Part shown: in pieces, positions 19,863 through 48,759 of the stretch
Layout of the letters: the number at the start of each line of letters is the position of its first letter
Numbering within the stretch: position 1 is the first letter of the stretch
Assembly (NCBI GenBank): GCA_019912965.1
Contig: JAIOHM010000105.1
Location: 1-64,000 of the forward strand
Source: Anaerolineae bacterium
Lineage (GTDB): Bacteria; Chloroflexota; Anaerolineae; Aggregatilineales; Phototrophicaceae
Length of the DNA: 64,000 nucleotides
Direction of reading: 5' to 3'
Notes under the pieces: generated by a model
What the model was told of the DNA's origin: nothing
Seen by the model: the letters and a program-made list of their open reading frames with translations, nothing else
Database searches by the model: none
Position numbers and translations under genes: made by a program

Positions 19863-20492
19863 ATGATTCGCATCTATTTGAGACTCGCTATTCCCCTCCT
19901 CGCAATCTTCATCGCCCTGAACATCGCCGCCCGCGCATTCGGCAGCACACAAGCGCCCAATCCTGTTTTGCGCGGCTTCACCGAAGGCTGCGAAGGCAAA
20001 CCTCAGCCCTGTTGGTATGGCATTGTGCCGGGAGTGACAAGCCTAGCAGAGGCTGACAGAATCATTCGACAACAGAACTTCATAAAGCGTCAAAATACTA
20101 TTGTTGTTATTTACGACACATTTTCCAATTCACCAATATCTTCTCTTACAATCGGTATATCCGCATCTCAACCAGATAAAGTGCAGGGCTTAGCATTAGA
20201 TTTAACAGAAAACATTCGTTTGGGTGATCTTCTAATTCAATTCGATGAACCTGATTGGATCGATATTCATGACAATTTCAGACTAACAGACCTAATCTAT
20301 GCATCTGAAAATGGAACTATAAGTTTAAGAACTGGCATCCAATCCAGATTTTACCCTTTTCAGCAAAACTTTGAGGCAATCGGTTTACTTCCAGTGAAAC
20401 CTATTTACGAAAATTATTCATATAATTGGTATGGTTTCATGCCAAGTTGGCGATACTGTCAACGAAGACCCCTTGCAGCCTTCTGCAATTAA
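19863..20492 (+). CDS. CWxGI-family membrane-anchored protein, copy A
   Basis: A 209-residue protein, unrecognised by name, one of four paralogues in the window (others at 44743, 45345 and 48091). An N-terminal hydrophobic helix (LAIPLLAIFIALNIAARAFG) acts as signal anchor. Next comes CEGKPQPCWYGIVPGVTSLAEA, a second segment IRLGDLLIQFDEPDW, and the C-terminal motif WYGFMPSWRYC ending in a further cysteine. The two G-x-T/L-x-E/D ... L-x-x-P segments recall BamE/SmpA-like folds, but I cannot confirm that. Start at the ATG before IRIYLRL; no strong ribosome binding site. It lies beside repeat island II. Confidence 0.75.
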   Translation: MIRIYLRLAIPLLAIFIALNIAARAFGSTQAPNPVLRGFTEGCEGKPQPCWYGIVPGVTSLAEADRIIRQQNFIKRQNTIVVIYDTFSNSPISSLTIGISASQPDKVQGLALDLTENIRLGDLLIQFDEPDWIDIHDNFRLTDLIYASENGTISLRTGIQSRFYPFQQNFEAIGLLPVKPIYENYSYNWYGFMPSWRYCQRRPLAAFCN

Positions 20493-20499
20493 TCAACAA

Positions 20500-20536
20500 A
20501 AAGGCGCAGACCTTTGCAGTTCGCGCCTTTCACTTT
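20500..20536 (+). terminator. Probable terminator after the copy A gene
   Basis: AAAGGCGC at 20500-20507 pairs with GCGCCTTT at 20523-20530, enclosing 15 bases, and is followed by CACTTTAG. The T-tract is short, so this is a weaker call. Confidence 0.5.
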
Positions 20537-20565
20537 AGTGGCAACTGGTGACTCGTGAACGATGT

Positions 20566-20670
20566 GGGCAGACATGCGCTGCGCTTAGTCTGCCCCTACG
20601 AAAATCGTCGTGCTGACACCTCATCCCCCAGCCCCTCTCCGTAGTAACAGAGAGGGGAGCATGAGGTGTC
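20566..20670. repeat. Two REP-like palindromes in tandem
   Basis: The first (20566-20599) has arms GGGCAGAC and GTCTGCCC followed by CTAC. The second (20615-20670) is copy 3 of the CCCCTCTCC element and has long outer arms, GACACCTCAT and ATGAGGTGTC. Both lie between convergent genes. Confidence 0.65.
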
Positions 20671-20703
20671 AGAAATAGGATAACTGGTGATTACGACCAG
20701 CGA

Positions 20704-22107
20704 CTACAGATTGATGAAATGTCCCTCAAGGCCGTGCGCGGCTTCCTTCAGGGCTTCGCTGAGGGTTGGATGCGCGTGCACATTGCGGGCGATTTCGTTA
20801 GGCGTCAGTTCGGCAAAACGTGCCAGTGTCAGTTCCGGCAGCAACTCGGTGACTTCCGGGCCGATCATGTGTGCGCCCAATATTTCGCCATATTTCTTGT
20901 CGCTAATCAGCTTGACGAAGCCGCTGGAATCGCCTAAGCCGTGCGCCTTCGCGTTGGCCTGAAACGGAAACTTGGCGACGTTGACATCATAGCCTTTTTC
21001 GCGCGCCTGCTTTTCGGTATAGCCAAAGCTGGCAATCTGCGGCTGGCAGTAGGTGGCGCGCGGCATCATGTCGAATTCCAGTTCGATGGTTTCCACGCCC
21101 GCGATATTTTCCGCTGCAATTATGCCCATTGCCTCGGCAACGTGCGCCAGCATCAGTTTGGCGGTTACATCGCCAATCGCGTAAATATGCGGGACGTTGG
21201 TTTGCAGCTTGTTGTTGATGGCAATCGCGCCGCGTTCGGTCAGCTTGACGCCCGTTTTTTCCAATCCATAACCCTGTGTGCGCGGCTTGAACCCGATGGC
21301 CTGCAAAACCTTGTCGGCTTCCAATGTGACGGGTTTGCCATCCGGCGGTGTGACGGTGACACGGACGTTCTTGCCCGTATCCTCGATCTTATCGACGCGG
21401 GTTTTTGCCATCACCTTGATGCCCGCGCGGGTGTACTGCTTGTACAGTTCGGCGGAAACCTCTTCATCTTCATTCGGCATAATCCGGTCGAGGAATTCGA
21501 CAATGGTCACATCCACGCCGTAGTTATGCATCACATAGGCGAATTCGACGCCAATCGCGCCGCCGCCCGCGATGATGATGCTCTTGGGCAATGTGTCCTG
21601 CATAATCTGTTCTTCATAGGTGACGACTCGTTCGCTCACCTGCGTACCGGGAATGAGCGCCGTTGTCGCGCCTGCGGCGATAATGCAGTGCTTAAACTTG
21701 AGCGTTTCATTGCCGCCGTCATTCAGTTTTACATCCATCGTGTGGGCATCGGTGAAGGTCGCCCAACCCTGAACCTCGTCAATCTTGTTGTTCCGCATCA
21801 GGTAGTGAACGCCTTTGACGCGCCCATCAGCCACGCGGCGGCTGCGTTTGAAGGCCTCGCCGTAATCAAACTCGACCTTGCCTTCAACCTTGATGCCAAA
21901 TGTCTTGGCTTCGTGCTTGAAAATATGCGCCAATTCCGCATTCCGCAGCAGCGCCTTTGATGGGATGCAGCCCACATTCAGACACACCCCGCCCCAATAC
22001 TGCTTTTCCACCACTGCTGTTTTAAAACCCAACTGTGCCGCGCGGATGGCCGCTACATAACCCCCCGGCCCCGCGCCCAGCACAATCACATCATATTCTT
22101 TTGCCAT
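20704..22107 (-). CDS. lpdA: Dihydrolipoamide dehydrogenase (E3)
   Basis: A 467-residue FAD-dependent disulfide oxidoreductase that reoxidises the dihydrolipoyl groups of E2 with NAD+. The FAD site is [21 protein letters not shown]. The redox disulfide is in [15 protein letters not shown]. The NAD site is [15 protein letters not shown], a second FAD segment is YAIGDV, and the C-terminus holds the catalytic HAHPTLSE. Start at the ATG preceded by AAGGAGCTGCTTC; nine upstream codons are in frame but lie before the ribosome site. It is encoded apart from the E1/E2 genes at 28594-32032, which have no E3 of their own nearby, so it is their likely partner. Confidence 0.96.
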
Positions 22108-22231
22108 GAAGCAGCTCCTTATAGCCGTCAGCATTCAGCTTTCGGCGTAGAATCGAAACTCAATTGCGAAAACACAGAAGATAATAAATAGACGCGCCTG
22201 TAGATGCAATTGCTTACAAGAACCAATCGCC

Positions 22232-22549
22232 TTACCCTTTCGCTTCCGAGCCAATCACTTTCATGACTTCCCGAAAGTCACCGCGCCGCCACGCAGCAAT
22301 AGCGGCTGCTTCGGCCTGCGTCAAATCCGTCCCGATGGGGGAAGCCGGATTATCCGTTAGTCCGAGGAGATAATCGGTACTGACGCCGAAAAAAGTAGCC
22401 ATCCGCGCCAAAACATCACCGGTTGCATCGTTTTTGCCGATTTCGTAGCGGACGATTTGCGACTCCGCAATATCGACTTTTTCTGCAAATTCGCGGCGGC
22501 TAAAACCGTAGGCTTCCCTTAATTCACGCAATCGCTTACCGTCGATCAT
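22232..22549 (-). CDS. XRE-family transcriptional regulator
   Basis: A 105-residue protein with a Cro/CI-type helix-turn-helix at about 3-60 (LRELREAYGFSRREFAEKVD then ESQIVRYEIGKND) and a short C-terminal tail. Start taken at the ATG; GTG and TTG codons six and nine bases upstream are also in frame. It is divergent from the small membrane gene at 22686. The space between holds inverted repeats that overlap a likely promoter, so it may repress that gene and itself. Confidence 0.85.
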   Translation of the reverse strand: MIDGKRLRELREAYGFSRREFAEKVDIAESQIVRYEIGKNDATGDVLARMATFFGVSTDYLLGLTDNPASPIGTDLTQAEAAAIAAWRRGDFREVMKVIGSEAKG

Positions 22550-22579
22550 AGACACCAACCAGCAATATTAAACAGATGC

Positions 22580-22646
22580 TTGACAAACTTTGCTACATAT
22601 GACAAAATGAGATTGTCACAAGTAAGCAAATTTCACTGTTTGCTAC
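22580..22646 (+). promoter_or_regulatory. Promoter with XRE-type operator repeats
   Basis: A plus-strand promoter candidate has TTGACA at 22580-22585, a 17-base spacer, an extended -10 TGA and CAAAAT at 22603-22608. TGACAA (22600-22605) and TTGTCA (22613-22618) form an inverted repeat over the -10. TTTGCTAC at 22589-22596 recurs at 22639-22646, with the near-inverse GTAAGCAAA at 22622-22630. The layout fits control by the divergent XRE protein (inference). Confidence 0.5.
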
Positions 22647-22685
22647 ACAACAAACTCAAAACTCAATTTTACCATGAGGTGAGCG

Positions 22686-22880
22686 ATGAAAACGGTTTTC
22701 AGATCGCTGTTGTTCGGTGCGCTTATTGGATTGGTGCTGGGCATCATCCTTTCGGAGCAGCGTCAAAAGCGGGAAGCAAAAGCCCGCGAAGATGCTTTCG
22801 TTAATGACCCCGAAATTAAAGCCCATATCGCTGAGATGAAAGCCCACGATGTCATGGAACATTTGATTAATCAGCTTTGA
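22686..22880 (+). CDS. Small single-pass membrane protein
   Basis: A 64-residue protein with an N-terminal hydrophobic helix (SLLFGALIGLVLGIILS) followed by a charged helix rich in K, R and E. The start has a clear ribosome binding site (ATGAGGTGAGCG). It is the first gene after the divergent XRE operator and lies 13 bases from the next gene. Function unknown. Confidence 0.65.
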   Translation: MKTVFRSLLFGALIGLVLGIILSEQRQKREAKAREDAFVNDPEIKAHIAEMKAHDVMEHLINQL

Positions 22881-22893
22881 GTTGAGTGCAAAA

Positions 22894-23118
22894 ATGAGCA
22901 ATTGGTATTTAGACACCACTTTACAAGGGCTGCGAAATTTTTTACGCATGGAACGGGACAGCAGCAAGCGTGCTTATCTTGAAACGCTTATTGATAAACT
23001 AAGAAAAGGCATCCGTCATGCTGAGGAAAAGGAACGGGACGCCAAAATGATCGGCGTCCGTAATCCATCCTTCGATGGCGATATGGTGGGTTATCCTGAA
23101 GACGATTTTGATGATTAG
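22894..23118 (+). CDS. Small charged protein, unknown
   Basis: A 74-residue soluble, helix-rich protein (SNWYLDTTLQGLRNFLRMER at the start) with an acidic end (YPEDDFDD). Start taken at the ATG; a TTG four codons upstream is also possible. It follows the small membrane gene by 13 bases, so the two form an operon. It ends three bases from the convergent FecR-like gene. Not recognised. Confidence 0.6.
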   Translation: MSNWYLDTTLQGLRNFLRMERDSSKRAYLETLIDKLRKGIRHAEEKERDAKMIGVRNPSFDGDMVGYPEDDFDD

Positions 23119-23121
23119 CCT

Positions 23122-24414
23122 TTAATCGCCATCAGAATCGCTGTCGTCGCTTCCACCGCTGTCATTGCTGCCACCATTGGAATCGTCGTTATCGTCGCTA
23201 TGTTCGGCATCATCGCCGCTTCCTCCATCGTCGTTATCATCGTCAGATGGGGATGCCTGATCGTCACCTGAATCGTCGGGTGGCGGCTGTTCATCATCTT
23301 CCGGTTCGTCGCAGAAAGGTCGATCTTCGCCCAACGGCAGCGCAGGATCGCCGGGACGTGGCGCGAACACACAATCGCGATCATCAAAAATCGACGGATC
23401 GAATTCCTCACAATCCGGCAGTGGGCCAAAACCACACAACGGTTCATCCAGATCACGCCGCGTCTGAATCAATTCCCACAGGATTTGTACATCGGCTTCC
23501 GACAGCGGCGGTGCAACTTCAATATCGCGCTCCAACAGGTTAAACGGCAGTACATCAATCAGACCACGCCGCCCCTCATATGACAGCGGCAAACCGGGTC
23601 TGCCTGCGGGCTTGATGAAGACCAATTCCTCAATATCGGGCGGGGCAATCTGAATTTCGTTGCCGGGGGCAGGTGCGGCAGCGGCGGGTGCTTCGGCAGA
23701 AACTTCGGCCTCTTCCTCCTCGCCAAACTCCATTGGAATGCTCACCCATGTACCGGGGATAATCACTTGGGTTTCTTCTTCAGCCGAGACATAAGCCGAA
23801 CCTTCCAGCGTGCTGATGGTCATGCCATCGTCACCGCCGACCTGAAAAAATACGGTTGAACCCATGCTGACATCCACGCCGTTGACGTTAAAGCTCACAT
23901 GCCCCACGCCTTCCGGAGTTTGCACCAACATGCCGCTTTCCGGCGCTTCGGTGCAGTTCGAATCACCTACACCTGTTTTCAGGTAAAACGCCTGCATCGG
24001 CTTTAAATCCGACGAGCCATCGGTGGGGACAGCATTCGCCAGTTCGACATCGCCAAACAGCAGAAACGTTACGTTCTGACCGGGGAGGGTATCCGGAAGA
24101 TTGGCTTGCAGCTTCATCACCGCCACGCCCCATTTGCCAGCCGCTTCGTCCATTGGGCTGAGCCGCATGGTTTGGATGGTTGAGACATCCACAATATCGC
24201 CTGTTTGCTGGAACTGGAAATCGCTCACACCTGCTTGGGGTTGGGCGGTTAAATCAACATTGCCGTAACAGGCCTGATTGCGTCCCAAATCCTTGCAAAA
24301 TTCGTCCGCCGAATCCAGCGCGGTTTGCACAATCGCTGGACAATCCGACTGTGCCAACACTAACATCGGAGCAAGACACAGAAGTAAACTATAAACCAAC
24401 CATTTCAGACGCAT
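23122..24414 (-). CDS. Secreted FecR-like protein with polyacidic tail
   Basis: A 430-residue protein with a signal peptide (WLVYSLLLCLAPMLVLAQ). The middle (about 170-240) resembles a FecR-type beta domain (GVGHVSFNVNGVDVSMGSTV, then DDGMTISTLEGSAYVS and PGTWVSIPM). The last 60 or so residues are almost entirely D, S, G and N with a few P and E. Such a tail could bind divalent cations. Start at the ATG preceded by GAGGATTTT, nine bases after the PII-like gene, so it is the last gene of the lipoprotein-antiporter-PII operon. It is not beside a sigma factor or TonB receptor, so classical FecR signalling is unlikely. Confidence 0.75.
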   Translation of the reverse strand: MRLKWLVYSLLLCLAPMLVLAQSDCPAIVQTALDSADEFCKDLGRNQACYGNVDLTAQPQAGVSDFQFQQTGDIVDVSTIQTMRLSPMDEAAGKWGVAVMKLQANLPDTLPGQNVTFLLFGDVELANAVPTDGSSDLKPMQAFYLKTGVGDSNCTEAPESGMLVQTPEGVGHVSFNVNGVDVSMGSTVFFQVGGDDGMTISTLEGSAYVSAEEETQVIIPGTWVSIPMEFGEEEEAEVSAEAPAAAAPAPGNEIQIAPPDIEELVFIKPAGRPGLPLSYEGRRGLIDVLPFNLLERDIEVAPPLSEADVQILWELIQTRRDLDEPLCGFGPLPDCEEFDPSIFDDRDCVFAPRPGDPALPLGEDRPFCDEPEDDEQPPPDDSGDDQASPSDDDNDDGGSGDDAEHSDDNDDSNGGSNDSGGSDDSDSDGD

Positions 24415-24423
24415 AAAATCCTC

Positions 24424-24786
24424 TTATGATTTGCTGTGATCGCGGATGCCAATCACCCGTTCCAGATCAACCACCAATAAGATACCGTTGTTGGGTTCAC
24501 GCAAATTCCCCAGAATAGCCTCCGTCTGCTGGATGACTGCATCCACCACCGCATCATTTTCGACAGCCGAAAGCATGATGATGCTGGTTTCGTTGTTCTG
24601 GCGCATAATGTCCAGCAGCGACATCATCCCCGGTAAAATTTCAGCACCTTTGGCGGCCTTTTGCAACCGCCGTATTCCATGCGCTTCCAGGACGGTCACG
24701 CCGGGGACACCCGCCGCTAACCATGCCTCGCCAATCCGGGATGACTCGTCAATCCGGGCGGTGATGAAAATAATCAATTTTGCCAT
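24424..24786 (-). CDS. PII-like regulatory protein
   Basis: A 120-residue protein with a PII-like start (KLIIFITARIDESSRI then GEAWLAAGVPGVTVLEAHG). The second half carries a strand TSIIMLSAVENDAVVDAVI and an end GILLVVDLERVIGI. PII-like proteins are trimers that bind nucleotides and control transporters. Its start lies one base after the antiporter stop (TAA-C-ATG), so it is very probably translated together with the antiporter and may regulate it. A longer in-frame start lies inside the antiporter gene. The canonical T-loop sequence is not obvious, so the ligand is unknown. Confidence 0.75.
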   Translation of the reverse strand: MAKLIIFITARIDESSRIGEAWLAAGVPGVTVLEAHGIRRLQKAAKGAEILPGMMSLLDIMRQNNETSIIMLSAVENDAVVDAVIQQTEAILGNLREPNNGILLVVDLERVIGIRDHSKS

Positions 24787-24787
24787 G

Positions 24788-26026
24788 TTATGCGCTCTCC
24801 GCATTGCTTGTGGGTTGGAAGTAACGCCGTACCAGCGGCGGCGTCAAAACGGTCGTCAGCAAAATGACCAGAAACAGCGTGATAAATAAGGGCTTACCGG
24901 CTGGCAGCAAGCCGCTGCTTAAACCCAGTGTGGCGATAATCAAACCCACTTCGCCGCGTGAAATCATGCATATTCCTAATTGCAACGATTCGCGTCGGTC
25001 AAATTTGCCTAAGCGCGCACCCCATCCACAACCGAGGACTTTGGAAATGATGGCAGCCGCCAGCAGTGCCCCGGCAAAGGGTACAGCGTCCAACGGGAAA
25101 CTGCGTAAGTCGATTTGCAGTCCGACGCTGACAAAGAAAATCGGCACCAGAAAAGCATAAGCAATATATCCCACAGCTTCATCAATCTGATGTTTGGCTG
25201 TGCCTTTTACACGGCTTAGACCCACACCAGCGATGAACGCTCCAGTGATAGCCGCAACGCCGCCGAGCAGTTGGGCTGACCATCCAAATAGCAGTGCCAT
25301 AACGAGGGCAACCGCCGGGATGCCATAAGAATGACGTGGGCCGGGTTGGGTGTATAACCAATTGATGAGGCGGGGGAGTATGAACCAGGCTATCAAAAAT
25401 GCAAAAACAATGTAGACGGTCATACGCGCGATAATGCCCAGCAGCGCCCCGGCATCGACGATACCCACAGGCCGCGTGATGGCAATCGTCAAGGAAACCA
25501 GCAAGATTGCCAGTACATCATCTACCAGCGCGGTTGCCAGCAGCGCATTGCCGACTTTGGTGCGTAAAACACCAATTTCCAGCAGCACTTGAGCCGAAAT
25601 GCTCACCGATGTTGCAGCCATCGTCACCCCCGCGAACAGCGCCGGCTGCCATGCATAGCCAAAAATCATCACCAATGGCAGTATCATCATCACGGGCAGC
25701 AGTGCGCCAATGCTCCCAGCAAGTCCGGCCACCAAACCAACCTTCGCCAGCTCATCCAGATGGACATCCAACCCGATTTTAAACATCAACAGCAGCACAC
25801 CCATTTCCGCCAATTCGACGATGGTTTCTTGAAGGTGTACGATGTCTGTGCCAAGTGTGGCAGAGTTCAAAATATCCAGCACCGTTGGGCCAAGGATGAT
25901 TCCAATCAGCAGTTCGCCCAGCACACGCGGCTGGTCAAAACGCCGCGCCACTTCCCCGGCCACACGCGATGCTAAAATGATGATGCCCAGCACCAGAAAA
26001 AGCGTTACGACCGGGGTGTTATCCAT
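24788..26026 (-). CDS. CPA2-family cation:proton antiporter
   Basis: A 412-residue membrane protein with about 12-13 helices, of the Na+/H+ exchanger (Kef/NapA-like) type. Family signatures include RRFDQPRVLGELLIGIILGP near the start, the helix segment LATALVDDVLAILLVSL carrying the conserved DD pair, and ISRGEVGLIIATLG near the end. It lacks the C-terminal RCK (TrkA-N) domain of KefB/C, so regulation may come from the PII-like protein encoded directly downstream. Start at ATG preceded by GTGAGGTTTG; a TTG one codon upstream is possible. It starts 9 bases after the lipoprotein stop. Confidence 0.9.
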   Translation of the reverse strand: MDNTPVVTLFLVLGIIILASRVAGEVARRFDQPRVLGELLIGIILGPTVLDILNSATLGTDIVHLQETIVELAEMGVLLLMFKIGLDVHLDELAKVGLVAGLAGSIGALLPVMMILPLVMIFGYAWQPALFAGVTMAATSVSISAQVLLEIGVLRTKVGNALLATALVDDVLAILLVSLTIAITRPVGIVDAGALLGIIARMTVYIVFAFLIAWFILPRLINWLYTQPGPRHSYGIPAVALVMALLFGWSAQLLGGVAAITGAFIAGVGLSRVKGTAKHQIDEAVGYIAYAFLVPIFFVSVGLQIDLRSFPLDAVPFAGALLAAAIISKVLGCGWGARLGKFDRRESLQLGICMISRGEVGLIIATLGLSSGLLPAGKPLFITLFLVILLTTVLTPPLVRRYFQPTSNAESA

Positions 26027-26035
26027 CAAACCTCA

Positions 26036-26815
26036 CTATTGGGGGACGCGCAGGGTTACTTCCATCGCGGTGTCCGTGACCACGATTGACTCTAAATCCT
26101 GTTCTTCACCAACGCGCTGTTTCAAAATGGCATCCAGCGACTCGACCATCATGAAGAAAAAATCGCCTGTCACCACTTCCACATAGGCTTCTGGCGGTTC
26201 GGGGGCGTTGACCGTGATTTCACCGAGGCTGATGGTTGCAAAATCCCCGGTCAGAATGATCGAGACGAACACGCGCCCGGTGATGAAGGCTTCGCCGCCG
26301 GATGCCGTTAGCTCAACGTTGATTCCACCCGGCACAAAATCCACAATGGCCCGGTCAATCGTCGGATAATTTGGCAAGCGCAAACTGACTTCTTCCTGAA
26401 ACTGTCCCTGCGTAATGGTCACATCAGCCAACTGCGCGGGCGTCCCACCTAAAGGCCCGGTTGATCCCGGCGGGGCGGGCGTGAAGGTCGAAAAAATCGG
26501 CGCTTCGATCACGGCGGCGGTCGCGCTGGCGTTGGCTGCTATAGTCGGCTCAATGGTCGCAATCGCCGTCCGGGTCGGACGTGGTGTAAAGCTCGGCGGC
26601 GGCGTATTGGTCGCGGTTGGTGTCAGGCTCGGAATTGATGTTTCGGTTGGGATAGGCGTATCCTCTGGTGTTTCCGTCAAGGTTGGTTCGGCGCTGGCTT
26701 CGGCGCTCGGTTCCAAACTGGGCAGCACTGCCAGCGTGGGCAGTTCGCCTTGCGGTGCAGCGGGTTGGCAGGCTGCGAGGATAATCAGCAGTACAAATGG
26801 GATAAACAGTCGCAT
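26036..26815 (-). CDS. Lipoprotein with TP-rich linker
   Basis: A 259-residue lipoprotein: signal peptide MRLFIPFVLLIILAAC with the lipobox LAAC at C16. Residues 17-100 are rich in T, P, E and S (for example TPEDTPIPTETSIPSLTP), a flexible surface linker. The remaining 150 residues form an unrecognised beta-rich domain (VTITQGQFQEEVSLRLPNYP onward) that may bind or sense at the membrane face. Start at the ATG preceded by AAAGGATCGTTTG. First gene of the operon with the antiporter, PII-like and FecR-like genes. Confidence 0.8.
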   Translation of the reverse strand: MRLFIPFVLLIILAACQPAAPQGELPTLAVLPSLEPSAEASAEPTLTETPEDTPIPTETSIPSLTPTATNTPPPSFTPRPTRTAIATIEPTIAANASATAAVIEAPIFSTFTPAPPGSTGPLGGTPAQLADVTITQGQFQEEVSLRLPNYPTIDRAIVDFVPGGINVELTASGGEAFITGRVFVSIILTGDFATISLGEITVNAPEPPEAYVEVVTGDFFFMMVESLDAILKQRVGEEQDLESIVVTDTAMEVTLRVPQ

Positions 26816-26897
26816 CAAACGATCCTTTGGGATTGAATAAAACCACACCCCTTAGACCGTTCTTAGCGTAGCACAGGTTACGGCCTGCTGGAAGCGG

Positions 26898-28439: not shown

Positions 28440-28544
28440 CAGGCTGCCCCGTTATGGTCACTGCTGTTTTCATGATAGCAGGAGATGGGGATTGCATTGT
28501 GGATTATAAGGCAACGATTGGGCAACGGCTGATAGACTGACAAA

Positions 28545-28571
28545 TCAAAAGGGCGCAGTCTCCCGCGCCCT
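28545..28571 (-). terminator. Terminator of the E1-E2 operon
   Basis: On the minus strand GGGCGC, an 8-base loop and GCGCCC are followed by TTTTGATTTG. It lies 23 bases after the E2 stop codon. Confidence 0.75.
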
Positions 28572-28593
28572 CGAAAAGCTCATGACAATTTGA

Positions 28594-29937: not shown

Positions 29938-29972
29938 TCAAATTCCTCCAAAAGGACATCAAAGTTTACAAA

Positions 29973-30006
29973 GGCTCTGTGAAAACTCTGTGTCTCTGTG
30001 GTTATA
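29973..30006. repeat. CTCTGTGT-type repeat between E1beta and E2
   Basis: Third copy of the unit seen at 486 and 2311, ending CTCTGTGTCTCTGTGGTTA. It fills most of the 71 bases between the E1beta stop and the E2 start. Confidence 0.55.
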
Positions 30007-30008
30007 GC

Positions 30009-32032: not shown

Positions 32033-32092
32033 TGGCTCTCCTAAAAAAATCGTATAGAAGGCATCATAAAAATGTGCTTTGAACCCATCTTT

Positions 32093-40000: not shown

Positions 40001-40263
40001 AATACACGGACACCTTCGATCAAGGTTGGGCGTTGTCGTCCGGTTTCTATGCGGGTGAGGTTATCACCATAACCACCACCCTGGAATCCGGCACATCCTC
40101 CAGCTTTACAGTCACATCGCCGTATAATGTGGTAGTCCTTACCGGAACAGCCCCCGGAACCTTCAGCTATACCGTTGCCACCACCGGGATATATGACTGG
40201 TACTTCATGAATGATGGGCCGGGTGCTATGTTCGTCACCGTGGAATGCGCTTCCCCTGAATAA
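37012..40263 (+). CDS. Large secreted PA14/SH3-like protein with TP-rich linkers
   Basis: A 1083-residue exported protein. A signal peptide (1-26) is followed by a PPTETP-type hexapeptide array to about 97. Three copies of an SH3-like domain (about 103-183, 667-743, 857-937) share [10 protein letters not shown] and LLGRA ... W-x-YLVRRS-x-G-x-EGW. Two PA14-like domains (about 236-376 and 402-543) share [15 protein letters not shown] and DDGVRLW[10 protein letters not shown]. Long T/P-rich linkers separate them. A last domain (about 987-1083) has two cysteines. PA14 domains bind carbohydrate. The protein probably spans the envelope or acts as an adhesin. Start at the ATG preceded by GGGGGAGCTG. 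Confidence 0.9.
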
Positions 40264-40270
40264 ACACAAA

Positions 40271-40304
40271 TGGGGACGGCTAACCACCGTCCCCATGTTT
40301 TTAT
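40271..40304 (+). terminator. Terminator after the PA14/SH3 gene
   Basis: TGGGGACGG and CCGTCCCCA form a 9-base-pair stem with a 7-base loop and are followed by TGTTTTTAT on the plus strand. The minus side has only a short AT tract. Confidence 0.85.
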
Positions 40305-40346
40305 CAACTTGTTTTCCAGCATCGCCACCGAATCAGATGAAGTCTA

Positions 40347-41378: not shown

Positions 41379-41495
41379 TACTAAACCTCAATATTAGATA
41401 ATCAGATGAAAAAGTTTTAGCCCATAAAGATTACATGTAAAATAACATTTCAATCAATCTGCAATGCTTTTGCCGCGCAAAATCCCCCAACTGAC

Positions 41496-41564
41496 CTGTA
41501 AAAATATCACCTTACAGATGGACGTACATTTAGTCTTGAGCCTGTATCATGAGTTTGTTGTACT
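41496..41564 (+). promoter_or_regulatory. Candidate promoter and operator for the membrane protein-M48 operon
   Basis: TTGAGC at 41536-41541, a 17-base spacer and TGTACT at 41559-41564 make a plausible promoter. The start would fall near 41571, just ahead of the GAGGAG ribosome site. Upstream, CTGTAA (41496-41501) and TTACAG (41512-41517) form an inverted repeat with a 10-base centre, a possible regulator site. Confidence 0.4.
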
Positions 41565-41588
41565 ACTCTCCCCATGAGGAGTTTGAAG

Positions 41589-42074
41589 ATGTTTGAGTCG
41601 ATCAATAAGCATCTCAGGTTGCGGGCGGTCTTGATTGCAGGAATAGCCGCCGGAACCGCTTTTTTGGTGTTCAATGTTCTGTTCATGCCGCTGGTTTTAC
41701 AAGTATCGCCTGTCGTTATTTTGCGCTACATGGGATCACTGATATTAGGCAGTCAGGTTGTAATCCAGACTGACGTTTCCCCCGTTGTGGTCGGCTTGGT
41801 GGTACATTACCTCATCTCGCTTCTGCTCACCCTGCTGATCGCCATTGTCGTTCACCGTTGGGGATTAGTGGTTGGCGTCATCGGCGGCGCTATTCTGGGT
41901 TTATCCCTGTACGCCATTAACCTCTACACCTTCACCCTGTTCTTTCAGTGGTTTTTCGCCATCAACAACTGGGTCTTGCTCCTCAGCCATGTGGTCTTCG
42001 GCGCTGTTGCGGGCGGTGTATACGAGGTGTTCGATGACTACGATTTACCCCTTAACCGGAGGACAAACACATGA
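41589..42074 (+). CDS. Four-helix membrane protein
   Basis: A 161-residue integral membrane protein with about four helices (for example AVLIAGIAAGTAFLVFNVLF and LISLLLTLLIAIVVHRWGLV). Start taken at the second ATG, which has GAGGAGTTTGAAG before it; the first ATG lies inside that ribosome site. Its stop overlaps the M48-like protease start by four bases, so the two are coupled. It may anchor or assist the protease. Not recognised by name. Confidence 0.72.
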   Translation: MFESINKHLRLRAVLIAGIAAGTAFLVFNVLFMPLVLQVSPVVILRYMGSLILGSQVVIQTDVSPVVVGLVVHYLISLLLTLLIAIVVHRWGLVVGVIGGAILGLSLYAINLYTFTLFFQWFFAINNWVLLLSHVVFGAVAGGVYEVFDDYDLPLNRRTNT

Positions 42075-42865
42075 TGAGACGACGCAGCAGTGGCTTGAGT
42101 GGGCGCTTGATCATTGGTCTGGTCATCGTCGTCATTTCCCTGATTTCATATTTCGGATCGAAAGAATTCAATCCAATTACGGGCGAAGATCAATACCTGA
42201 GCCTGACCCCTGAACAGGAAATCGCCTTAGGGCTGCAATCCGCGCCGCAGATGATTCAGGAATTTGGCGGCCTGTATCCTGATGAAGAAGTCCAGCAGCA
42301 GATAAAGGACATCGGCAATCAGTTGGTGAATAACAGTGTCGCACAGGATACCCCGTGGCAGTTTGACTTCCATGTTTTGGATGATCCCGATATGGTGAAT
42401 GCTTTCGCCCTTCCCGGTGGACAGATATTCATCACAACCGGATTGTTATCTGAACTGGATACGGAAGATTTGGTTGCGGGTGTGTTGGCGCATGAAATTG
42501 TACATGTGCTGGCACGGCACAGCGCCCAGCAAATCGCCAAAAGTGAGTTGACCAATGGTTTGGTTGGCGCGGTTGGGGTAGCTTCTGGCGACGCCAACGC
42601 TGCCCAAACTGCTGCTATGGTCGGACAGTTAATCAATATGCGCTACGGACGGCAGGACGAATTACAATCGGATGGATTGGGCGTTTGCCTGATGATAAGC
42701 GCCAATTATGATCCCGAAGCCATGATCGAAGTCATGCAAATATTGGCAGCAGCCGGCGGCGGGCAAGCCCAGCCAGAATTTTTCAGCACCCATCCGAACC
42801 CCGAAAACCGTATCGAGGAGATTGAGCAGGCCATCGCCAACGCGGCGCAGGAATGTCCCCAATAA
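42071..42865 (+). CDS. M48-family metalloprotease, membrane-anchored
   Basis: A 264-residue protein with an N-terminal membrane helix (LIIGLVIVVISLISYFG) and an M48-type zinc protease domain outside the membrane. The zinc site is HEIVH (H141, E142, H145) with a probable third ligand E197 in RQDELQSDGLG. NAFALPGGQIFITTGLL and the final STHPNPENRIEEIEQ are characteristic of the BepA/LoiP-like group, which degrade misfolded envelope proteins. The TPR tail of BepA is absent. Coupled to the upstream membrane protein gene by an ATGA overlap. Confidence 0.92.
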   Translation: MMRRRSSGLSGRLIIGLVIVVISLISYFGSKEFNPITGEDQYLSLTPEQEIALGLQSAPQMIQEFGGLYPDEEVQQQIKDIGNQLVNNSVAQDTPWQFDFHVLDDPDMVNAFALPGGQIFITTGLLSELDTEDLVAGVLAHEIVHVLARHSAQQIAKSELTNGLVGAVGVASGDANAAQTAAMVGQLINMRYGRQDELQSDGLGVCLMISANYDPEAMIEVMQILAAAGGGQAQPEFFSTHPNPENRIEEIEQAIANAAQECPQ

Positions 42866-43082
42866 TTCCCTCTCTATGCCCTTTTAAGGGGTGGCGCTTT
42901 TGAACGCTGCCCCCAATTTGTCGTAGTGGCTAAATGCCCCTGATTACCTTGTTCCTCCCCCTCGTTGCCCACCGCTTAATGCAGCCCTCCGCCGTTTGAA
43001 AACCCGAACTTGACCGAATATTTGTTCTGATTTACAATGGAACTGTCGGCAAATAATTTCGTTCTGAGTTGGGGATGTGAAC

Positions 43083-43448
43083 ATGGAAAAACGCGGTCAA
43101 CTAAAAGTGGCAGTCCCCATCTTGCTTACGCGGGACATCAACAAGGCCGCCGATTTCTACACTCAAAAACTTGGTTTCACCGTTTCCAGCATCTACCCCA
43201 ACTACCTCATCATCAAACGCGATGAAACAGCACTGCATTTTTCTTTAGCCCAAGACCTCGACCCTAAAACCAACAGTTGCATGACCTACGTCTACGTCAG
43301 CAATATCGACAGCCTCTATGCCGAATGCCAAGAGCAGAACATCATCCATCCCAACGGCGCGCTGCAAGCAAAAGACTATGGCATGAAAGACTTCGCCGTC
43401 ATCGACCCCGACGGCAACCTGCTCACCTTTGGCGAATCCACAGCCTGA
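43083..43448 (+). CDS. VOC superfamily protein (bleomycin-resistance-like)
   Basis: A 121-residue single-domain VOC protein. VPILLTRDINKAADFYTQKL and the end KDFAVIDPDGNLLTFGE match the two halves of the bleomycin resistance/glyoxalase fold. The first metal-ligand position (usually H or Q after the first strand) is not a histidine, so it may bind ligands without catalysis, as drug-binding members do. Start at ATG preceded by TTGGGGATGTGAAC; a GTG two codons upstream is possible. It stands alone. Confidence 0.85.
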   Translation: MEKRGQLKVAVPILLTRDINKAADFYTQKLGFTVSSIYPNYLIIKRDETALHFSLAQDLDPKTNSCMTYVYVSNIDSLYAECQEQNIIHPNGALQAKDYGMKDFAVIDPDGNLLTFGESTA

Positions 43449-43580
43449 TTGTCATTTATGTCAACTTGAACTGACAATTGACATTGACGACATTGACGAC
43501 ATTACCTCTCTTCCGCAATTTATGTAGAATTCAATGGGTAAAGTCGTGATGGATAGGGCAATACTCCGAAAAGAAGGATT

Positions 43581-44369
43581 ATGAGGTCACTCTACGTCAA
43601 TGAAACCGGAATGCCCGGAGCACCCAGCATTGTCTTTTTGCACGGTATTGGTGCAAGCGGTTGGATGTGGGAAAAGCAAATTGCCGCCCTTGCCGATTTC
43701 CACTGCCTGAACGTAGACCTGCCCGGTCATGGCAAGAGTAATCAGGTGCCATGGGTATCGCTGGCAGACACTGCTGATCACATCGCAGCGCTCATTCAAT
43801 CCCGCGCTACAAACGGATGGGCACATGTCGTCGGGCTGTCGCTCGGTGGGCATATCGCGCTGGTTCTGCTGGAACGCCATGCCAACGTGGTGGATCGCGC
43901 TGTCATCAGCGGCGTCACGGATGCACCTATGCCTAATCGGGCACTGTTAAAACCGCAGCTGTGGCTAATGTCCTTCTTGCTGAAAAGGCGTTGGTTTGTG
44001 AATATGCAGGCAAGATCACTGCCCCTTTCATCCGACATGCAATCGGCTTTCACCGAAAATCTGCTGGCGATGTCGCTGCAAGCCTACCGCCGCATCTGGG
44101 AAGAAGCGGTCGATTTTTATGTGCCGCCCACTCTCAAGCTCGTGAATAACCCCACGCTCATCACAGCAGGTGGTAGCGAAACGAACATTATTACGCGAAC
44201 CGTTGATACGATCCCAAAACTCATGCCCAACGCGCAAGGACGACTCGCACCCGGACGTGGTCACGGTTGGAACATTGAAGCGCCAGACCTTTTCACCGCG
44301 ATGGTACGCGCATGGATCACTGGCACACCGCTGCCAGCAGGGTTGCAAGCGGCGCACAGCGTGGCATAG
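43581..44369 (+). CDS. Alpha/beta-fold hydrolase
   Basis: A 262-residue cytoplasmic hydrolase. SIVFLHGIGASGWMWEKQI holds the oxyanion region, VVGLSLGGHIALV the nucleophile S87, and LAPGRGHGWNIEAPDLF the likely catalytic histidine. The acid residue is not obvious; the segment TLITAGGSETNIIT has a glutamate where aspartate is usual. Start at the ATG preceded by AAGAAGGATT. It may be an esterase or lactonase. It stands alone and is followed by a weak hairpin (TGCGG and CCGCA, 44385-44399) and repeat island III. Confidence 0.85.
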   Translation: MRSLYVNETGMPGAPSIVFLHGIGASGWMWEKQIAALADFHCLNVDLPGHGKSNQVPWVSLADTADHIAALIQSRATNGWAHVVGLSLGGHIALVLLERHANVVDRAVISGVTDAPMPNRALLKPQLWLMSFLLKRRWFVNMQARSLPLSSDMQSAFTENLLAMSLQAYRRIWEEAVDFYVPPTLKLVNNPTLITAGGSETNIITRTVDTIPKLMPNAQGRLAPGRGHGWNIEAPDLFTAMVRAWITGTPLPAGLQAAHSVA

Positions 44370-44439
44370 GAACTCCACATCATGTGCGGAAGGGCCGCAT
44401 TTCCCCTCACGGATAGCCGCTTGCGATAAAACCAACCCG

Positions 44440-44735
44440 GCAAATTATGTAATCATAATTGTCACCAACACCCTTCCCGACAAAGACGACGACGACGACA
44501 ATCCCAAAGTGGCGGCGAAACCCTTTTTCGCCACGTCGCCATCGCCGCCATCGCCGCCATTTCCCCTCAACCAATGGTCATGTGTGACAAAACATGCCGC
44601 CAATCGCCAACAACCTAAGAGTCGCAAGATTCAAAAAATCCGGTTTTGAAATTGCAGAATTTGAAGAAATTTGCGAATTTTCCCCGTATTTCTCTGAAAA
44701 CCAATAACCAGGAACCAACCACCAATAAACCGACT
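44440..44735. repeat. Intergenic repeat island III
   Basis: No gene is seen between 44370 and 44742. The island contains CCCGACAAA, five GAC units and AATCCC (44476-44505), the inverted counterpart of 19474-19500 in island II, where there are four units. Next come a GGCGAAA ... TTTCGCC hairpin, GCCATCGCC runs, GCAGAATTTGAAG words and a heptamer-like CCAATAACCAGGAACCAACC stretch. Confidence 0.65.
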
Positions 44736-44742
44736 ATCGACC

Positions 44743-45348
44743 TCAACAAGCATCCACCCCATGCTGAAGAAATTGATGATAGCAGTACCAGATCGGGGAT
44801 TGGAAACCCTGCCAGTCCACTATAAAGGAATCCAGAATGCGGGTGTTGGTTCGAAATTCAAATCCTTCCACGAAACTGTAGAGGGAAAAGGGCGGGGAAT
44901 CCAAAATGATGCGCGCGCCATCCGCATAAAATAAAGTTAATGAACTCGGATCCGCCAACACCGAATCCGGCAGACCGAATAAACTGGCTAAATCTCCAAA
45001 ACGGATGCCCGCGCAGTTCTGAAAACGCAGCCGTTGAACCGCCCCAGTTGAATCCGCATAATGGGCTTGCAGGTCACAGTTGATGACCGGTTTAAATACC
45101 CCATAACCGATGATTCCGTAGCTGCTCCGGTGCGAAGGGCTGTAACCCGTTTCGGTCAACAGGCGCTGAGCTTCTGCAACCGTTGTTCTGCCCAACACAA
45201 TGCCGTACCAGCAGGGATGCGGCTCATCCATACAGGGATCGCTCAGGCTGTGCAGGGCGGGGTTCAGGGGTTGTCGCAGGCCGATTTCACGGGCAGCGAT
45301 GCTCAAAATCGTAAGGCTGATGAAAAGCGCGGCTGTAATGAATTTCAT
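44743..45348 (-). CDS. CWxGI-family membrane-anchored protein, copy B
   Basis: A 201-residue paralogue of copies A, C and D. N-terminal hydrophobic helix (ITAALFISLTILSIAAREIG), then CMDEPHPCWYGIVLGRTTVA, a second segment IRFGDLASLFGLPDSV, and the C-terminal motif DWQGFQSPIWYC ending in a cysteine. Its C-terminal motif has WYC where the others have WRY. The start ATG overlaps the stop of copy C by four bases, so the two are translated together. An in-frame ATG three codons earlier lies inside copy C. Function unknown. Confidence 0.75.
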   Translation of the reverse strand: MKFITAALFISLTILSIAAREIGLRQPLNPALHSLSDPCMDEPHPCWYGIVLGRTTVAEAQRLLTETGYSPSHRSSYGIIGYGVFKPVINCDLQAHYADSTGAVQRLRFQNCAGIRFGDLASLFGLPDSVLADPSSLTLFYADGARIILDSPPFSLYSFVEGFEFRTNTRILDSFIVDWQGFQSPIWYCYHQFLQHGVDAC

Positions 45349-45977
45349 TCCGCACAACCTTCGTAGTCCGGCTCAAGCTGGCAGTAGCGCCACTGCGGGA
45401 GAAAGCCATGCCACGGTTTAGCGCGCCGGGTATACCCCTCGTCATCTAGCACTAAACGCATATGGTCAACGGCTGCATTCGGGACGCGCCACCAGCCCGG
45501 TTTTAAGCGAATCGTCAAATTGCCATAAATCCAGTCTTCGCCCAACGGCCCATAATCGACTCGACCCTCTGGCTGTCCCAACACAGTCATCAATTCGCCA
45601 ATTGTGATTTCCATGCACCACAGGATGATAGTCTTTACACCGATCACTTGATAGCCGAAGTAAACATCCGCGCAGCCGGGGACGTTTTCCAAACTGCGAT
45701 AGGGCATCAGACGGTCAGAGAGTTCCGTTCCGGCTAGTTCGCGGTGATAGCCGAGGGTTTCGAGGATTTTGCGGGCATCTTGAATCGCGGTGATGCCGGG
45801 GATAATCCCGTACCAGCAGGGGCTAATTTGCTGTTCACAATCTGTAGTGAAACCTGTGAGGGCTGGAGATGGCGTTTGTATGCCGCCGAACGCCCGTGCG
45901 ACCAAGCCACTCAGCAGGAAGAAGCCGATCAACAACGGGGCAGCATGAAACAGGGTGCGCGTTATCATGCTGCCCAT
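45345..45977 (-). CDS. CWxGI-family membrane-anchored protein, copy C
   Basis: A 210-residue paralogue. Hydrophobic N-terminal helix (HAAPLLIGFFLLSGLVARAFG), then CEQQISPCWYGIIPGITAIQ, a second segment ITIGELMTVLGQPEGRVDYG, and WHGFLPQWRYC followed by a terminal cysteine. Two start codons three codons apart are possible; the first has GAGG four bases upstream. It is the first gene of the C-B pair. The cysteines near the N- and C-terminal motifs could form a disulfide outside the cell. Confidence 0.75.
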   Translation of the reverse strand: MGSMITRTLFHAAPLLIGFFLLSGLVARAFGGIQTPSPALTGFTTDCEQQISPCWYGIIPGITAIQDARKILETLGYHRELAGTELSDRLMPYRSLENVPGCADVYFGYQVIGVKTIILWCMEITIGELMTVLGQPEGRVDYGPLGEDWIYGNLTIRLKPGWWRVPNAAVDHMRLVLDDEGYTRRAKPWHGFLPQWRYCQLEPDYEGCAE

Positions 45978-46028
45978 TGTGCCTCAAGGCGTGGAAAATG
46001 AGCAAAAACTACGTCGTGCAGCGGTTCA

Positions 46029-47177
46029 TCAACTGCTGTGGGACAACACCCAATCCGCTGTATCTGCCATCGGCTGGGGGTCAATCGGGCGGAAGCTGTC
46101 GTCAATTATGGTTTCGGCTGCGCCGAGAGAGTGCCCTAAACCGGGGTATAAATTGAGCGTGACATCCGCATTTCCAGCCTCGGTTAAGGCGTCATAGAGA
46201 ACCTGTGCGCCTCGCGCCGTGGTATTCGCATCATTTTCGCCCTGCAAAATCAGCACCGGGAATACCAGTTTATCAGCCTGTGCAGTTGGGATAGGGATAC
46301 CCGTTTCTGCATACATCGAGAAAAATCCCTCAGGTGCAAAGGCAGCATCCAAAAGCGAATCAACCGCAGGCAGAAATTCGTCATCCAAGGAAATGACTTC
46401 ATCGCCATTAGTGTCAATCTCAGGATTTACGATGAACTGCCCAAGCTGTGCCTGTGCCTGATCGACGAAATAAAACAGATTGCCCTTGGCGACCAGCCCA
46501 CCGTCACCGAATAATGCCTGCTGGATGACTGGAATATTTACCAGCCCATCAGCAGCAAAGGTTCGCAGGTAAGGTACGGTTACATCCGTGATCTGGGCAT
46601 TGAAGGTTTCGCGGAAAGACAGCCCAACAGCACCCTGCAAAATCAGCCCTGCCACATCGTCTACACGATCAACGGCAAGCTGTGACCCCACTACACTGCC
46701 TTCACTCCAACCATAGATGAAGAGATGTTCAGTATCCACCAGCGGGTTTTCCAGAGCCGAATCCAGCACCTTACCGGCATCTGCAACCAACTGTGGCAGG
46801 GTGATGGTGGCATAGTTTTCGGCGTCCACCTGATTAAACCCGCTAACGTAGTGTTTGTTATAGCGTATAACCGCGATACCCCGTGTTGGCAGATATTCGG
46901 CGATGTCTTTAAAAATGGACGAGACAATCGTTCCATCGAAGCCCATCACACTGAAGTCCATATCGGCAGGTGTCGAACCATGAATCAATATGACGGTTGG
47001 GAATGGTTGGTCACCTTCGGCTGGATAAGTGATCTGCGCATTGGTCACAAAATCGCCAAAATCGACGGCGAAATCCTGCGCGCGAAACGCAAGTGGCAAC
47101 TCTGGTGTGGCTTCCTGTGCGGCAGCCGGATAGAAAATAAGCAGCATGAAAATGAGGGTAAGCAGTTTGCGTACCAT
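46029..47177 (-). CDS. Secreted alpha/beta hydrolase (dienelactone hydrolase/S9-like)
   Basis: A 382-residue protein with a signal peptide (LLTLIFMLLIFYPAAAQ). The fold is shown by TVILIHGSTPADMDF, the nucleophile elbow FIYGWSEGSVVGS (S158), an acid near VLILQGENDANTT and a histidine in YPGLGHSLG. A lid-like helical insertion lies between about 170 and 290. Likely an extracytoplasmic esterase or peptidase-like hydrolase. It is followed by the copy C gene after about 50 bases on the same strand. Confidence 0.88.
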   Translation of the reverse strand: MVRKLLTLIFMLLIFYPAAAQEATPELPLAFRAQDFAVDFGDFVTNAQITYPAEGDQPFPTVILIHGSTPADMDFSVMGFDGTIVSSIFKDIAEYLPTRGIAVIRYNKHYVSGFNQVDAENYATITLPQLVADAGKVLDSALENPLVDTEHLFIYGWSEGSVVGSQLAVDRVDDVAGLILQGAVGLSFRETFNAQITDVTVPYLRTFAADGLVNIPVIQQALFGDGGLVAKGNLFYFVDQAQAQLGQFIVNPEIDTNGDEVISLDDEFLPAVDSLLDAAFAPEGFFSMYAETGIPIPTAQADKLVFPVLILQGENDANTTARGAQVLYDALTEAGNADVTLNLYPGLGHSLGAAETIIDDSFRPIDPQPMADTADWVLSHSS

Positions 47178-47215
47178 ATTGATTACTCCTGTTTGGTTAA
47201 ACTGATATTGAAAGA

Positions 47216-47428
47216 TTATGTCCGCTGTAAGTCTTCGTCGGTGGGTCGGAAAATTTCCTCAATCGACAGGACGAACAACCGTGACAGTTTAAAAGCCAAC
47301 GGCAGGCTGGGGTCATATTTCCCGGTTTCGATGGCGTTGATGGTCTGGCGGGAAACACCCAAGCGATCGGCTAAATCCGCCTGCGACCAATCCCGTTCGG
47401 CGCGCAGCACTTTGAGCCGGTTATTCAT
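47216..47428 (-). CDS. Small XRE-family regulator
   Basis: A 70-residue protein that is almost only a helix-turn-helix: NRLKVLRAERDWSQADLADR and VSRQTINAIETGKYDPSLPL. These compact regulators are common next to a multi-spanning membrane protein gene, as here. Its ATG overlaps the stop of the upstream membrane gene by four bases. A longer frame upstream is only the overlapping reading of that gene. Confidence 0.88.
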   Translation of the reverse strand: MNNRLKVLRAERDWSQADLADRLGVSRQTINAIETGKYDPSLPLAFKLSRLFVLSIEEIFRPTDEDLQRT

Positions 47429-47805
47429 CGATAGCGCCGTTCTGCTATCGCCAGCCCGATCCCCCAGAAAGCGATTATCATGGGCAGCACCCATGTCAGA
47501 CTGAGCTGCGGAACACCTTCGTTTTCCAGCAGGCCGAGGGTAAAGGTGATGATTCCGGTACAGCCTAGGCTGAAGGCAAAGGCTTCGAAATGAATACGGC
47601 GTTGCATCTCGTCGATCTGGCGCACAAAGGTCATGAACGCCCACATGCCGAATATGGTTGGAATGAGGGGCAGGATGGCAACTAAAGCACGCAAGGGGCT
47701 TTCACCTATATTGCGGAGCAGCCAACCACTCCCCAGCACAACCGCCGTATAAGCAATCATCGAAATGATAAAGCGGCGTCTGTAAATCCTGTTCGGGTTG
47801 TTCAT
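47425..47805 (-). CDS. Four-helix membrane protein of an XRE cassette
   Basis: A 126-residue membrane protein with four predicted helices (SMIAYTAVVLGSGWLLRNIG, LVAILPLIPTIFGMWAFMTF and two more). The cytoplasmic loop RQIDEMQRRIHFEA between helices 2 and 3 is typical of the small membrane proteins encoded with compact XRE regulators. Start chosen at the ATG preceded by CTAGGTTTATC; the longer frame reads into the next gene upstream. Function of the family is not established. Confidence 0.8.
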   Translation of the reverse strand: MNNPNRIYRRRFIISMIAYTAVVLGSGWLLRNIGESPLRALVAILPLIPTIFGMWAFMTFVRQIDEMQRRIHFEAFAFSLGCTGIITFTLGLLENEGVPQLSLTWVLPMIIAFWGIGLAIAERRYR

Positions 47806-47812
47806 GATAAAC

Positions 47813-47989
47813 CTAGCGGGAACGCTTGGCCGAGTCCAGCGCGAAGCCGATGACGCAGCCGATTGCAATACCGAGCGGCATCCACAAACTGTTATCTGTG
47901 CTGCTGCTCAAAGCAGCACCAATGCCTGCTCCAAGTGAGAGACATAATCCAACGATATTTCCAGCTTTATAATTGGGTTTGGATTGCAT
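47813..47989 (-). CDS. Small glycine-rich membrane protein
   Basis: A 58-residue protein with two hydrophobic helices (NIVGLCLSLGAGIGAALS and WMPLGIAIGCVIGFALD) and regular glycine spacing. Start at the ATG preceded by GAGGTTGTGTG. First gene of a three-gene cassette with the four-helix membrane protein (8 bases downstream) and the XRE regulator. Unknown function. Confidence 0.65.
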   Translation of the reverse strand: MQSKPNYKAGNIVGLCLSLGAGIGAALSSSTDNSLWMPLGIAIGCVIGFALDSAKRSR

Positions 47990-48090
47990 CACACAACCTC
48001 CACGACACTCATTGGTCAATGAAATGTAGTGTATGTGATGTTTGTCTTTATGTCAAGCGTATTTTACAAATTGACGTGCAAACTTGATAT

Positions 48091-48759
48091 TTAAAAGCAG
48101 ACAACTCGTTCGGGATAGAGCCGGTCGTAACGCCATAAGGGGAGAAATCCACGCCACGGCAAGAGTGTTGAATTAGCCTGATTTTCCATCTGATTCAAGA
48201 TCATCTCGGTGGCGAGTGCTCCAGTGCCTGTTGGGGGCTGGGTGACGCTGATGAACAGGAGTTCGCTGTGCGGTGAAAGCTGGCTGCTGCACATTTCCGA
48301 GCGCATCACAATGACCACTTGATTATTTTCATAAGTGAGCAGGGAAATCATGGGAATCATGGATTCCGGTTCGCCCAGCATATCAATGATGTGGCCGAGC
48401 GATGTGCCTTTACAGACTTGTAATGTAAGCTCGGTGACTTTGGCATTGATCGAACGCGGCGCGCCCATACCCACCTGACAAATACTGTTCGGTTGGCTGG
48501 TGACGTAATTCATCACGTTTGGTATTGCCGTACCTTCCCCTTGCAGCGGTTCATAACCGAGTTCTGTTAGACGGCTAATAGCGTCGCCTAAGCGGGTTTC
48601 TCCGGGGCGGATACCGTTCCAGCAGGGCAAACGGCAGTTTTCAACCTGTACGAAACCACTGGGTGGACTACCCCATGCTTTCCCAATGGCAATCGAAACC
48701 AGCATCAGGGTTATCAGGGGAACCGTTATCAGACCGGGTAGGAGTAAAACGCGCTTCAT
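48091..48759 (-). CDS. CWxGI-family membrane-anchored protein, copy D
   Basis: A 222-residue paralogue, the most diverged of the four. Hydrophobic N-terminal helix (LITVPLITLMLVSIAIG), then CRLPCWNGIRPGETRLGDAI, a second segment TSLGHIIDMLGEPESMI, then WRGFLPLWRY near the C-terminus and a single late cysteine. The Cys after WRY in the other copies is an aspartate here. Its ATG overlaps the stop of the RNA methyltransferase gene by four bases, an operon with no obvious functional logic. Confidence 0.72.
   Translation of the reverse strand: MKRVLLLPGLITVPLITLMLVSIAIGKAWGSPPSGFVQVENCRLPCWNGIRPGETRLGDAISRLTELGYEPLQGEGTAIPNVMNYVTSQPNSICQVGMGAPRSINAKVTELTLQVCKGTSLGHIIDMLGEPESMIPMISLLTYENNQVVIVMRSEMCSSQLSPHSELLFISVTQPPTGTGALATEMILNQMENQANSTLLPWRGFLPLWRYDRLYPERVVCF

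Follow-up and report, generated by a model that had tools for sequence, protein, structure and literature searches.

Immunity proteins of polymorphic toxin systems, such as the Rhs and contact-dependent inhibition (CDI) systems, are cytoplasmic in all but a few cases according to the available part of a 2012 survey, with some of those for L,D-peptidase toxins secreted or transmembrane, and Imm65 is the only lipoprotein named there in the immunity set (PMC3482391). The same part of the survey shows no immunity protein for Tox-MPTase1-5, and states that beta-propellers had not then been found among immunity proteins (PMC3482391). Strings of immunity paralogues, as well as orphan copies, are on record (PMC3482391; PMC9484751). 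Among inhibitors, BLIP (beta-lactamase inhibitory protein) is built as a tandem of alpha-beta domains (PMC8363833). Here we describe four paralogous proteins, which we term CWGI, encoded in a 64,000-nucleotide stretch of an Anaerolineae genome (positions 1 to 64,000 of contig JAIOHM010000105.1, assembly GCA_019912965.1; hereafter the window). We give an even chance to the reading that CWGI is an extracytoplasmic inhibitor or immunity family acting against secreted zincin-type peptidase toxins, in which case the window copies are orphans without a toxin. The link to toxins comes from gene position in relatives, and for the window genes we infer it: distant relatives lie directly behind peptidase-tipped Rhs genes, so that the window proteins are probably spare immunity proteins. 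CWGI relatives resemble polymorphic immunity proteins in standing directly behind a toxin tip, often with overlapping frames; they differ from them in that CWGI members are exported or lipoproteins, and in that no Pfam model matches CWGI. The proposal provides metallopeptidase-type Rhs toxins with a candidate immunity protein, in compact toxin/immunity pairs. It would also offer a way into the function of a large family that neither Pfam nor NCBIfam models, from a phylum that is mostly uncultured.

Zincin-like tips and the proteins encoded behind them

In five distant genomes of the class, a gene with a zincin tip lies directly upstream of a family lipoprotein at 10 loci, found among 186 distinct family open reading frames (ORFs), fragments at locus ends included. 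Nine of the ten tips carry HExxH, and the tip of locus L091 has HKLGH; the tips share HExGH and a later motif resembling E/D-x-F-A-D, the L087 tip being a short frame. No Pfam family matched the tips, which gave one sub-cutoff hit, and an Rhs core model built from the two TIGR03696 hits of the window genome matches all 10 loci. At L152, in a distant genome, ORFs beside three family lipoproteins resemble Rhs ends in their motifs; they received no name from Pfam and match the Rhs core model. Six Rhs ends are resolvable at this locus; a family gene directly follows all three that have HExxH and none of the three without it. The association of the family follows toxin type, with a small sample on the negative side.

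A reciprocal search, with a profile of the 10 tips alone, matched 76 of 396 genomes of the class at E<=0.001. We examined 30 tip loci, five of them from training genomes and all five with a family gene downstream; among the 25 new loci one was cut off, and a family gene lies directly downstream in 15 of the other 24. Sorted by the presence of an Rhs core, a family gene is found downstream of 15 of 16 tips with a core and of none of the eight without. At L162, which has a core and no recognised family gene, the downstream lipoprotein may be divergent. On our reading, the eight core-less tips comprise three with secreted WD40-like proteins, two with a cysteine-bearing lipoprotein of another type and three that may not belong to toxins. 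Across the class, a family gene was listed within 1.2 kb downstream of at least 19 of 54 new tips, against one upstream and none on the other strand among the matches listed; conversely, at least 29 of 77 class-level members have a tip upstream, or at least 19 of 66 when the training genomes are excluded. The fixed place behind Rhs tips, and the presence of an Rhs core ahead of all 15 family genes found in the reciprocal search, would also suit accessory proteins or chaperones for export of the Rhs toxins instead of immunity proteins. We consider this improbable, since the family genes of L152 follow zincin-tipped Rhs ends only, three pairs of tip and family gene in the window's order have no Rhs core hit, and a lipoprotein anchor suits protection of the cell surface.

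In the window's order, a tip is paired with a family gene in genomes G037, G550 and G626 and a single time in G030; of these pairs, only that of G550 gives an Rhs core hit. Similar tips of this order mostly have a secreted WD40-like protein behind them. Such pairs occur in G018, G019, G030, G603, G662 and G280 and in the genus-mates G006 and G015, and an Rhs core sought in the frames of these pairs gave no hit. At L186-L194, L196, L200 and L202 the secreted WD40-like proteins stand directly behind the zincin tips, at the position of an immunity gene; at L195, L205 and L207 the tip matches are weaker and neither partner is behind them. The WD40-like nature of these secreted proteins is our reading: at 10 of the 12 loci with tip and WD40-like protein they have a BLAST match to the WD40 part of the two WD40+family fusions that the window genome encodes, WD40 repeats being generic. 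Near one of these fusions the window genome also encodes a toxin-less secreted WD40-like protein (L292:1249-2514), resembling those behind tips. Two other arrangements were seen. At L170 and L174 a different type of cysteine-bearing lipoprotein stands behind zincin-like tips, possibly another immunity family, and at L147:1522-4834 a family lipoprotein comes after a subtilase (S8) gene of the same strand, the two frames lying within about 15 bases of each other, perhaps as a peptidase/inhibitor pair.

In the proposed mechanism, a CWGI protein would be exported by its N-terminal helix and held by disulfides, with a predicted fold of two helix-plus-sheet units, and would bind and block a secreted zincin-type metallopeptidase toxin, as BLIP blocks its enzyme. 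The toxin-adjacent relatives would neutralise the zincin tips, the window copies would be orphan immunity genes or diversified inhibitor genes, and the tandem arrays described below may be a repertoire kept against the toxins of neighbours. A wider picture, to which we attach less than an even chance, is that the Chloroflexota surface is shielded from unlisted secreted zincin-tip toxins by two interchangeable types of exported inhibitor, the BLIP-like disulfide domain CWGI and secreted WD40-like propellers, sometimes fused, and that CWGI in the window's family now forms toxin-less arrays of up to 12 genes, an extracellular library of orphan immunity. Our findings also suggest that these bacteria commonly engage in extracellular conflict by means of exported inhibitors and propellers.

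Family membership, export and predicted fold

Pfam and NCBIfam gave no model for the four window proteins even at E<=5, nor for 99 diverse members at E<=0.01; Pfam matched none of 23 toxin-adjacent members, the known defence proteins of PADLOC gave nothing at E<=1 for seven proteins, and solved structures searched by sequence yielded no significant relative. With no characterised family reached by profile, the suggestion of an undescribed paralogous family, made in a sequence-only reading of the window, held; nor did we find a description of the family in the literature searched (titles and abstract openings, subscription journals being mostly outside this scope). A phage origin was rejected, as none of seven pattern matches in viral_contigs is a relative. 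The profile alignment of the set A2 to the 23 toxin-adjacent members has an hhalign probability of 98.3% (E 2.4e-14), and the four window sequences alone give 98.2% (E 4.1e-14), against 0.1% in a control with the tips. Judging by these profiles, the window members and the toxin-adjacent lipoproteins are homologues and one family.

With the four-sequence profile, the window genome (7.76 Mb, 237 contigs) holds 10 members at E<=0.001, namely the four window genes, a tandem set of five on contig 229 and one lipoprotein, encoded on contig 155. Members are present in 33 of 41 genomes, the window genome included (genus, 17/17; rest of the family, 7/8; rest of the order, 9/16). Profile A3 matches 14 of 301 genomes of the phylum at E<=1e-4 and the mixed profile A6 94 of 396 genomes of the class at E<=1e-5, and all 15 named loci are from metagenome-assembled genomes of Chloroflexota. 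In genus g204, ten genomes carry the family domain inside open frames of 606-633 residues; L267 (a frame of 581 residues) and L273 have long frames with two separate family matches each, perhaps double-domain proteins.

Export and disulfide bonding, which the sequence-only reading had inferred, are supported by sequence statistics. Of 97 start-trimmed members from 19 loci, we counted the 95 with a length of 150 residues or more. A hydrophobic N-terminal core is present in every one, K or R within residues 2-9 in 92 and a small-x-A site in 73; beyond residue 26, 94 of the 95 have an even number of cysteines, any p-value being inflated by shared descent. Across 38 window-type rows, one pair of cysteine columns occurs together (both in 31 rows, neither in four, single in three and none), and another pair is mutually exclusive (both in no row, single in five and 24, neither in nine), which is the pattern expected for alternative partners of one bond. 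The toxin-adjacent set has an even count in 23 of 29 rows, with a cruder cut and two genes counted twice.

AlphaFold2 models of members 2 and 4 (predicted local distance difference test, pLDDT, and predicted template-modelling score, pTM, in Table 1) share a fold; modelled separately, the two proteins give the same plan of an N-terminal helix followed by two units, each of one helix and four strands. An internal duplication was not recovered by sequence, the two halves aligning in hhalign with a probability of 0.3%, so that the two units are visible in the models only. A Foldseek search of the PDB gave no match at E<=0.001 for either model. The best PDB fold of the second model (member 4) is the DUF4309 protein YjgB of B. 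subtilis (4ygt; probability 0.99, E 5.6e-3, TM scores 0.36/0.48, 141 columns), a weak match, 4ygt not being among the best 50 Foldseek rows of the first model (member 2). Membership of DUF4309 (PF14172) was rejected, with no Pfam match in the 99 members and the family found in none of 201 Chloroflexota genomes at E<=0.01. In a viral fold library the first two ranks (E 3.1e-4 and 1.2e-3) are both uncharacterised phage proteins.

The order of helices and strands also fits a BLIP-type plan, two alpha+beta units with one concave sheet, and the CWGI models likewise hold two alpha+beta units, with no PDB match at E<=0.001. Because alpha-beta domains stand in tandem in BLIP, what the two share is at most a plan. 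Membership of the BLIP family was rejected, Pfam giving no match; in addition, BLIP is not among the best 50 Foldseek rows of either model. The two also differ in that the target of CWGI would be a zincin, and the cysteine pattern of BLIP differs from that of the CWGI family. PASTA membership was likewise rejected (no Pfam match in the 99 members at E<=0.01). The resemblance to BamE/SmpA proposed from the sequence reduces to topology at best. BamE and SmpA share with CWGI short motifs (G-x-T and G-x-P), the likeness that would speak for assembly lipoproteins of BamE/SmpA type; profile membership fails, with BamE (PF04355) matching none of the 99 members and the two sub-cutoff BamE hits in the genome lying at no family gene identified here, and we regard such an identity as very improbable.

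Toxin-less members and competing explanations

Eight genomes, that of the window included, carry strings of 3 to 12 members in the vicinity of an asparagine synthetase gene (two of the synthetases were run against Pfam); the synthetase directly adjoins the array in seven and is 2.3 kb off in G008. The longest array, of 12 genes, is in G024, of the same family, and the maximum in the genus is 11, in G015. Inside the strings, 45 of 56 gaps measure at most 20 nt, and 13 of these are 4-base overlaps. The arrays show irregularities: there is a 59-residue remnant in one, an LRR/fn3 gene splits one, and some run up to the end of their contig. In a quick tree of 105 rows, the window-type members (38, two lipoproteins among them) split from the array-type members (67) with a Shimodaira-Hasegawa-like approximate likelihood ratio test (SH-aLRT) value of 99. 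One clade (99) unites the first genes of four arrays with the middle gene of a fifth; several later array genes pair across genomes and others do not. The ratio of nonsynonymous to synonymous substitution rates (dN/dS) is 0.10-0.28 in nine of 12 family pairs, those with finite dS, and 0.06 in two synthetase pairs; these values give no sign of overall positive selection, dS being saturated in three of the 12 family pairs.

Former immunity proteins might have been reused as general surface binders, with arrays serving adhesion or nutrient binding and no longer meeting toxins. The arrays without adjacent toxins, the low dN/dS with no overall positive selection, and the LRR/fn3 protein inside one array (L073:5960-9109, 1049 residues, same strand) are in keeping with reuse, but an array content that is partly lineage-specific and the WD40+family fusions fit a conflict repertoire, and we hold reuse to be unlikely.

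Several observations weigh against an inhibitor or immunity role. The tip profile finds no match in the window genome, which has two Rhs ends, one of them with HEITH, and a family gene behind neither; no window or array member has a zincin-tip toxin directly upstream. Among the 15 family genes that the reciprocal search found behind tips, four (L172, L181, L183 and L184) are without the PCW motif and were recognised through the rest of the profile. Among the matches listed, 35 of the 54 new tips have no downstream family gene and 48 of the 77 class-level members no upstream tip. Of 39 members with room upstream in 40 further regions, six have an upstream HExxH ORF and one more an Rhs core, the rest being alone; without the known pairs (L280, L283), five of 37 have such an ORF and none more a core. 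Many members thus stand alone. Toxin adjacency (34 of 135 rows) is scattered: on a tree whose backbone is weak, it needs 24 changes. The weakness of the PDB match also counts against the proposed role.

So, too, does the setting of one lipoprotein subtype, which lies in a block with an S1 gene at 21 loci (16 of 20 regions examined and five others), VKOR being present in 19 of the 21, and the finding, in three genera of the window's family (L136, L137 and L140), of DsbA-like Thioredoxin_4 proteins with a C-terminal family domain (by Pfam for two genera and BLAST for the third). Together with a cysteine pair invariant across the 99 members, these observations would suit envelope housekeeping, in which the domain is a substrate or partner of a VKOR-DsbA system and the toxin-adjacent copies are a side branch. 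The VKOR gene, however, is on the opposite strand, and two of the 21 loci lack it. VKOR is also not close to the window and array members: the one VKOR match of the window genome, which also has four DsbA-like matches, is on another contig. Genes for moeA, PPC and M23 are likewise conserved in the block (L066 and 20 syntenic loci), so plain synteny can explain the proximity of VKOR. We find a housekeeping role unlikely. Housekeeping synteny covers most of the VKOR block, but the DsbA-like fusions are left unexplained by an immunity role.

The four window genes and their neighbours

The ORFs lie where the sequence-only reading had placed them (Table 1). A search of the whole genome with member 1 as query recovers the remaining members at E values of 1.4e-19, 1.0e-17 and 3.2e-6. 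All four begin with an export-type N-terminal helix and continue with PCWxGI-x2-G-x-T, a second segment of G...P form and a tail with W-x-GF; invariant columns of alignment A1 are P49, C50, W51, G53, I54, G57, T59, G121, P130, W189, G191 and F192. The proposed family of four paralogues with a common plan was borne out, as were the ATGA coupling of two members and that of a third to a methylase gene, here of SpoU type. The C-terminal WRYC or WYC was found in three members and not in member 4, which ends WRYD. Repeat islands had been reported beside two members; they are unconfirmed, as the three stretches tested (19200-20750, 44300-46100 and 47700-48200) held short imperfect pairs only. Rfam and tRNA scans of the window gave no matches.

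Table 1. Family members and associated features of the window
Feature	Position	Strand	Remark
Family member 1, 209 aa	19863..20492	+	adjoins Pyr_redox_2 (dihydrolipoamide-dehydrogenase-like) gene
Member 1 C-x6-CWYGI motif, residues 43-54	19989..20024	+	
Family member 2, 201 aa from ATG	44743..45348	-	modelled, pLDDT 85.7, pTM 0.77
Member 2 C-x6-CWYGI motif, residues 39-50	45199..45234	-	
ATGA stop/start overlap, members 3 and 2	45345..45348	-	
Family member 3, 210 aa	45345..45977	-	207 aa if from second in-frame ATG at 45968
Member 3 C-x6-CWYGI motif	45804..45839	-	
Family member 4, 222 aa	48091..48759	-	modelled, pLDDT 83.6, pTM 0.77
Member 4 C-x3-CWNGI motif, residues 42-50	48610..48636	-	
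SpoU-family RNA methylase	48756..49511	-	ATGA overlap with member 4 at 48756-48759

The SpoU methylase is kept as a neighbour of a family gene in six loci and the Pyr_redox_2 gene in seven, those of the window counted in both cases; a functional tie to either, or to the asparagine synthetase beside the arrays, was rejected, and we read these neighbourhoods as conserved synteny. Member 4 has an orthologue in another species (L060), with 58-61% identity.
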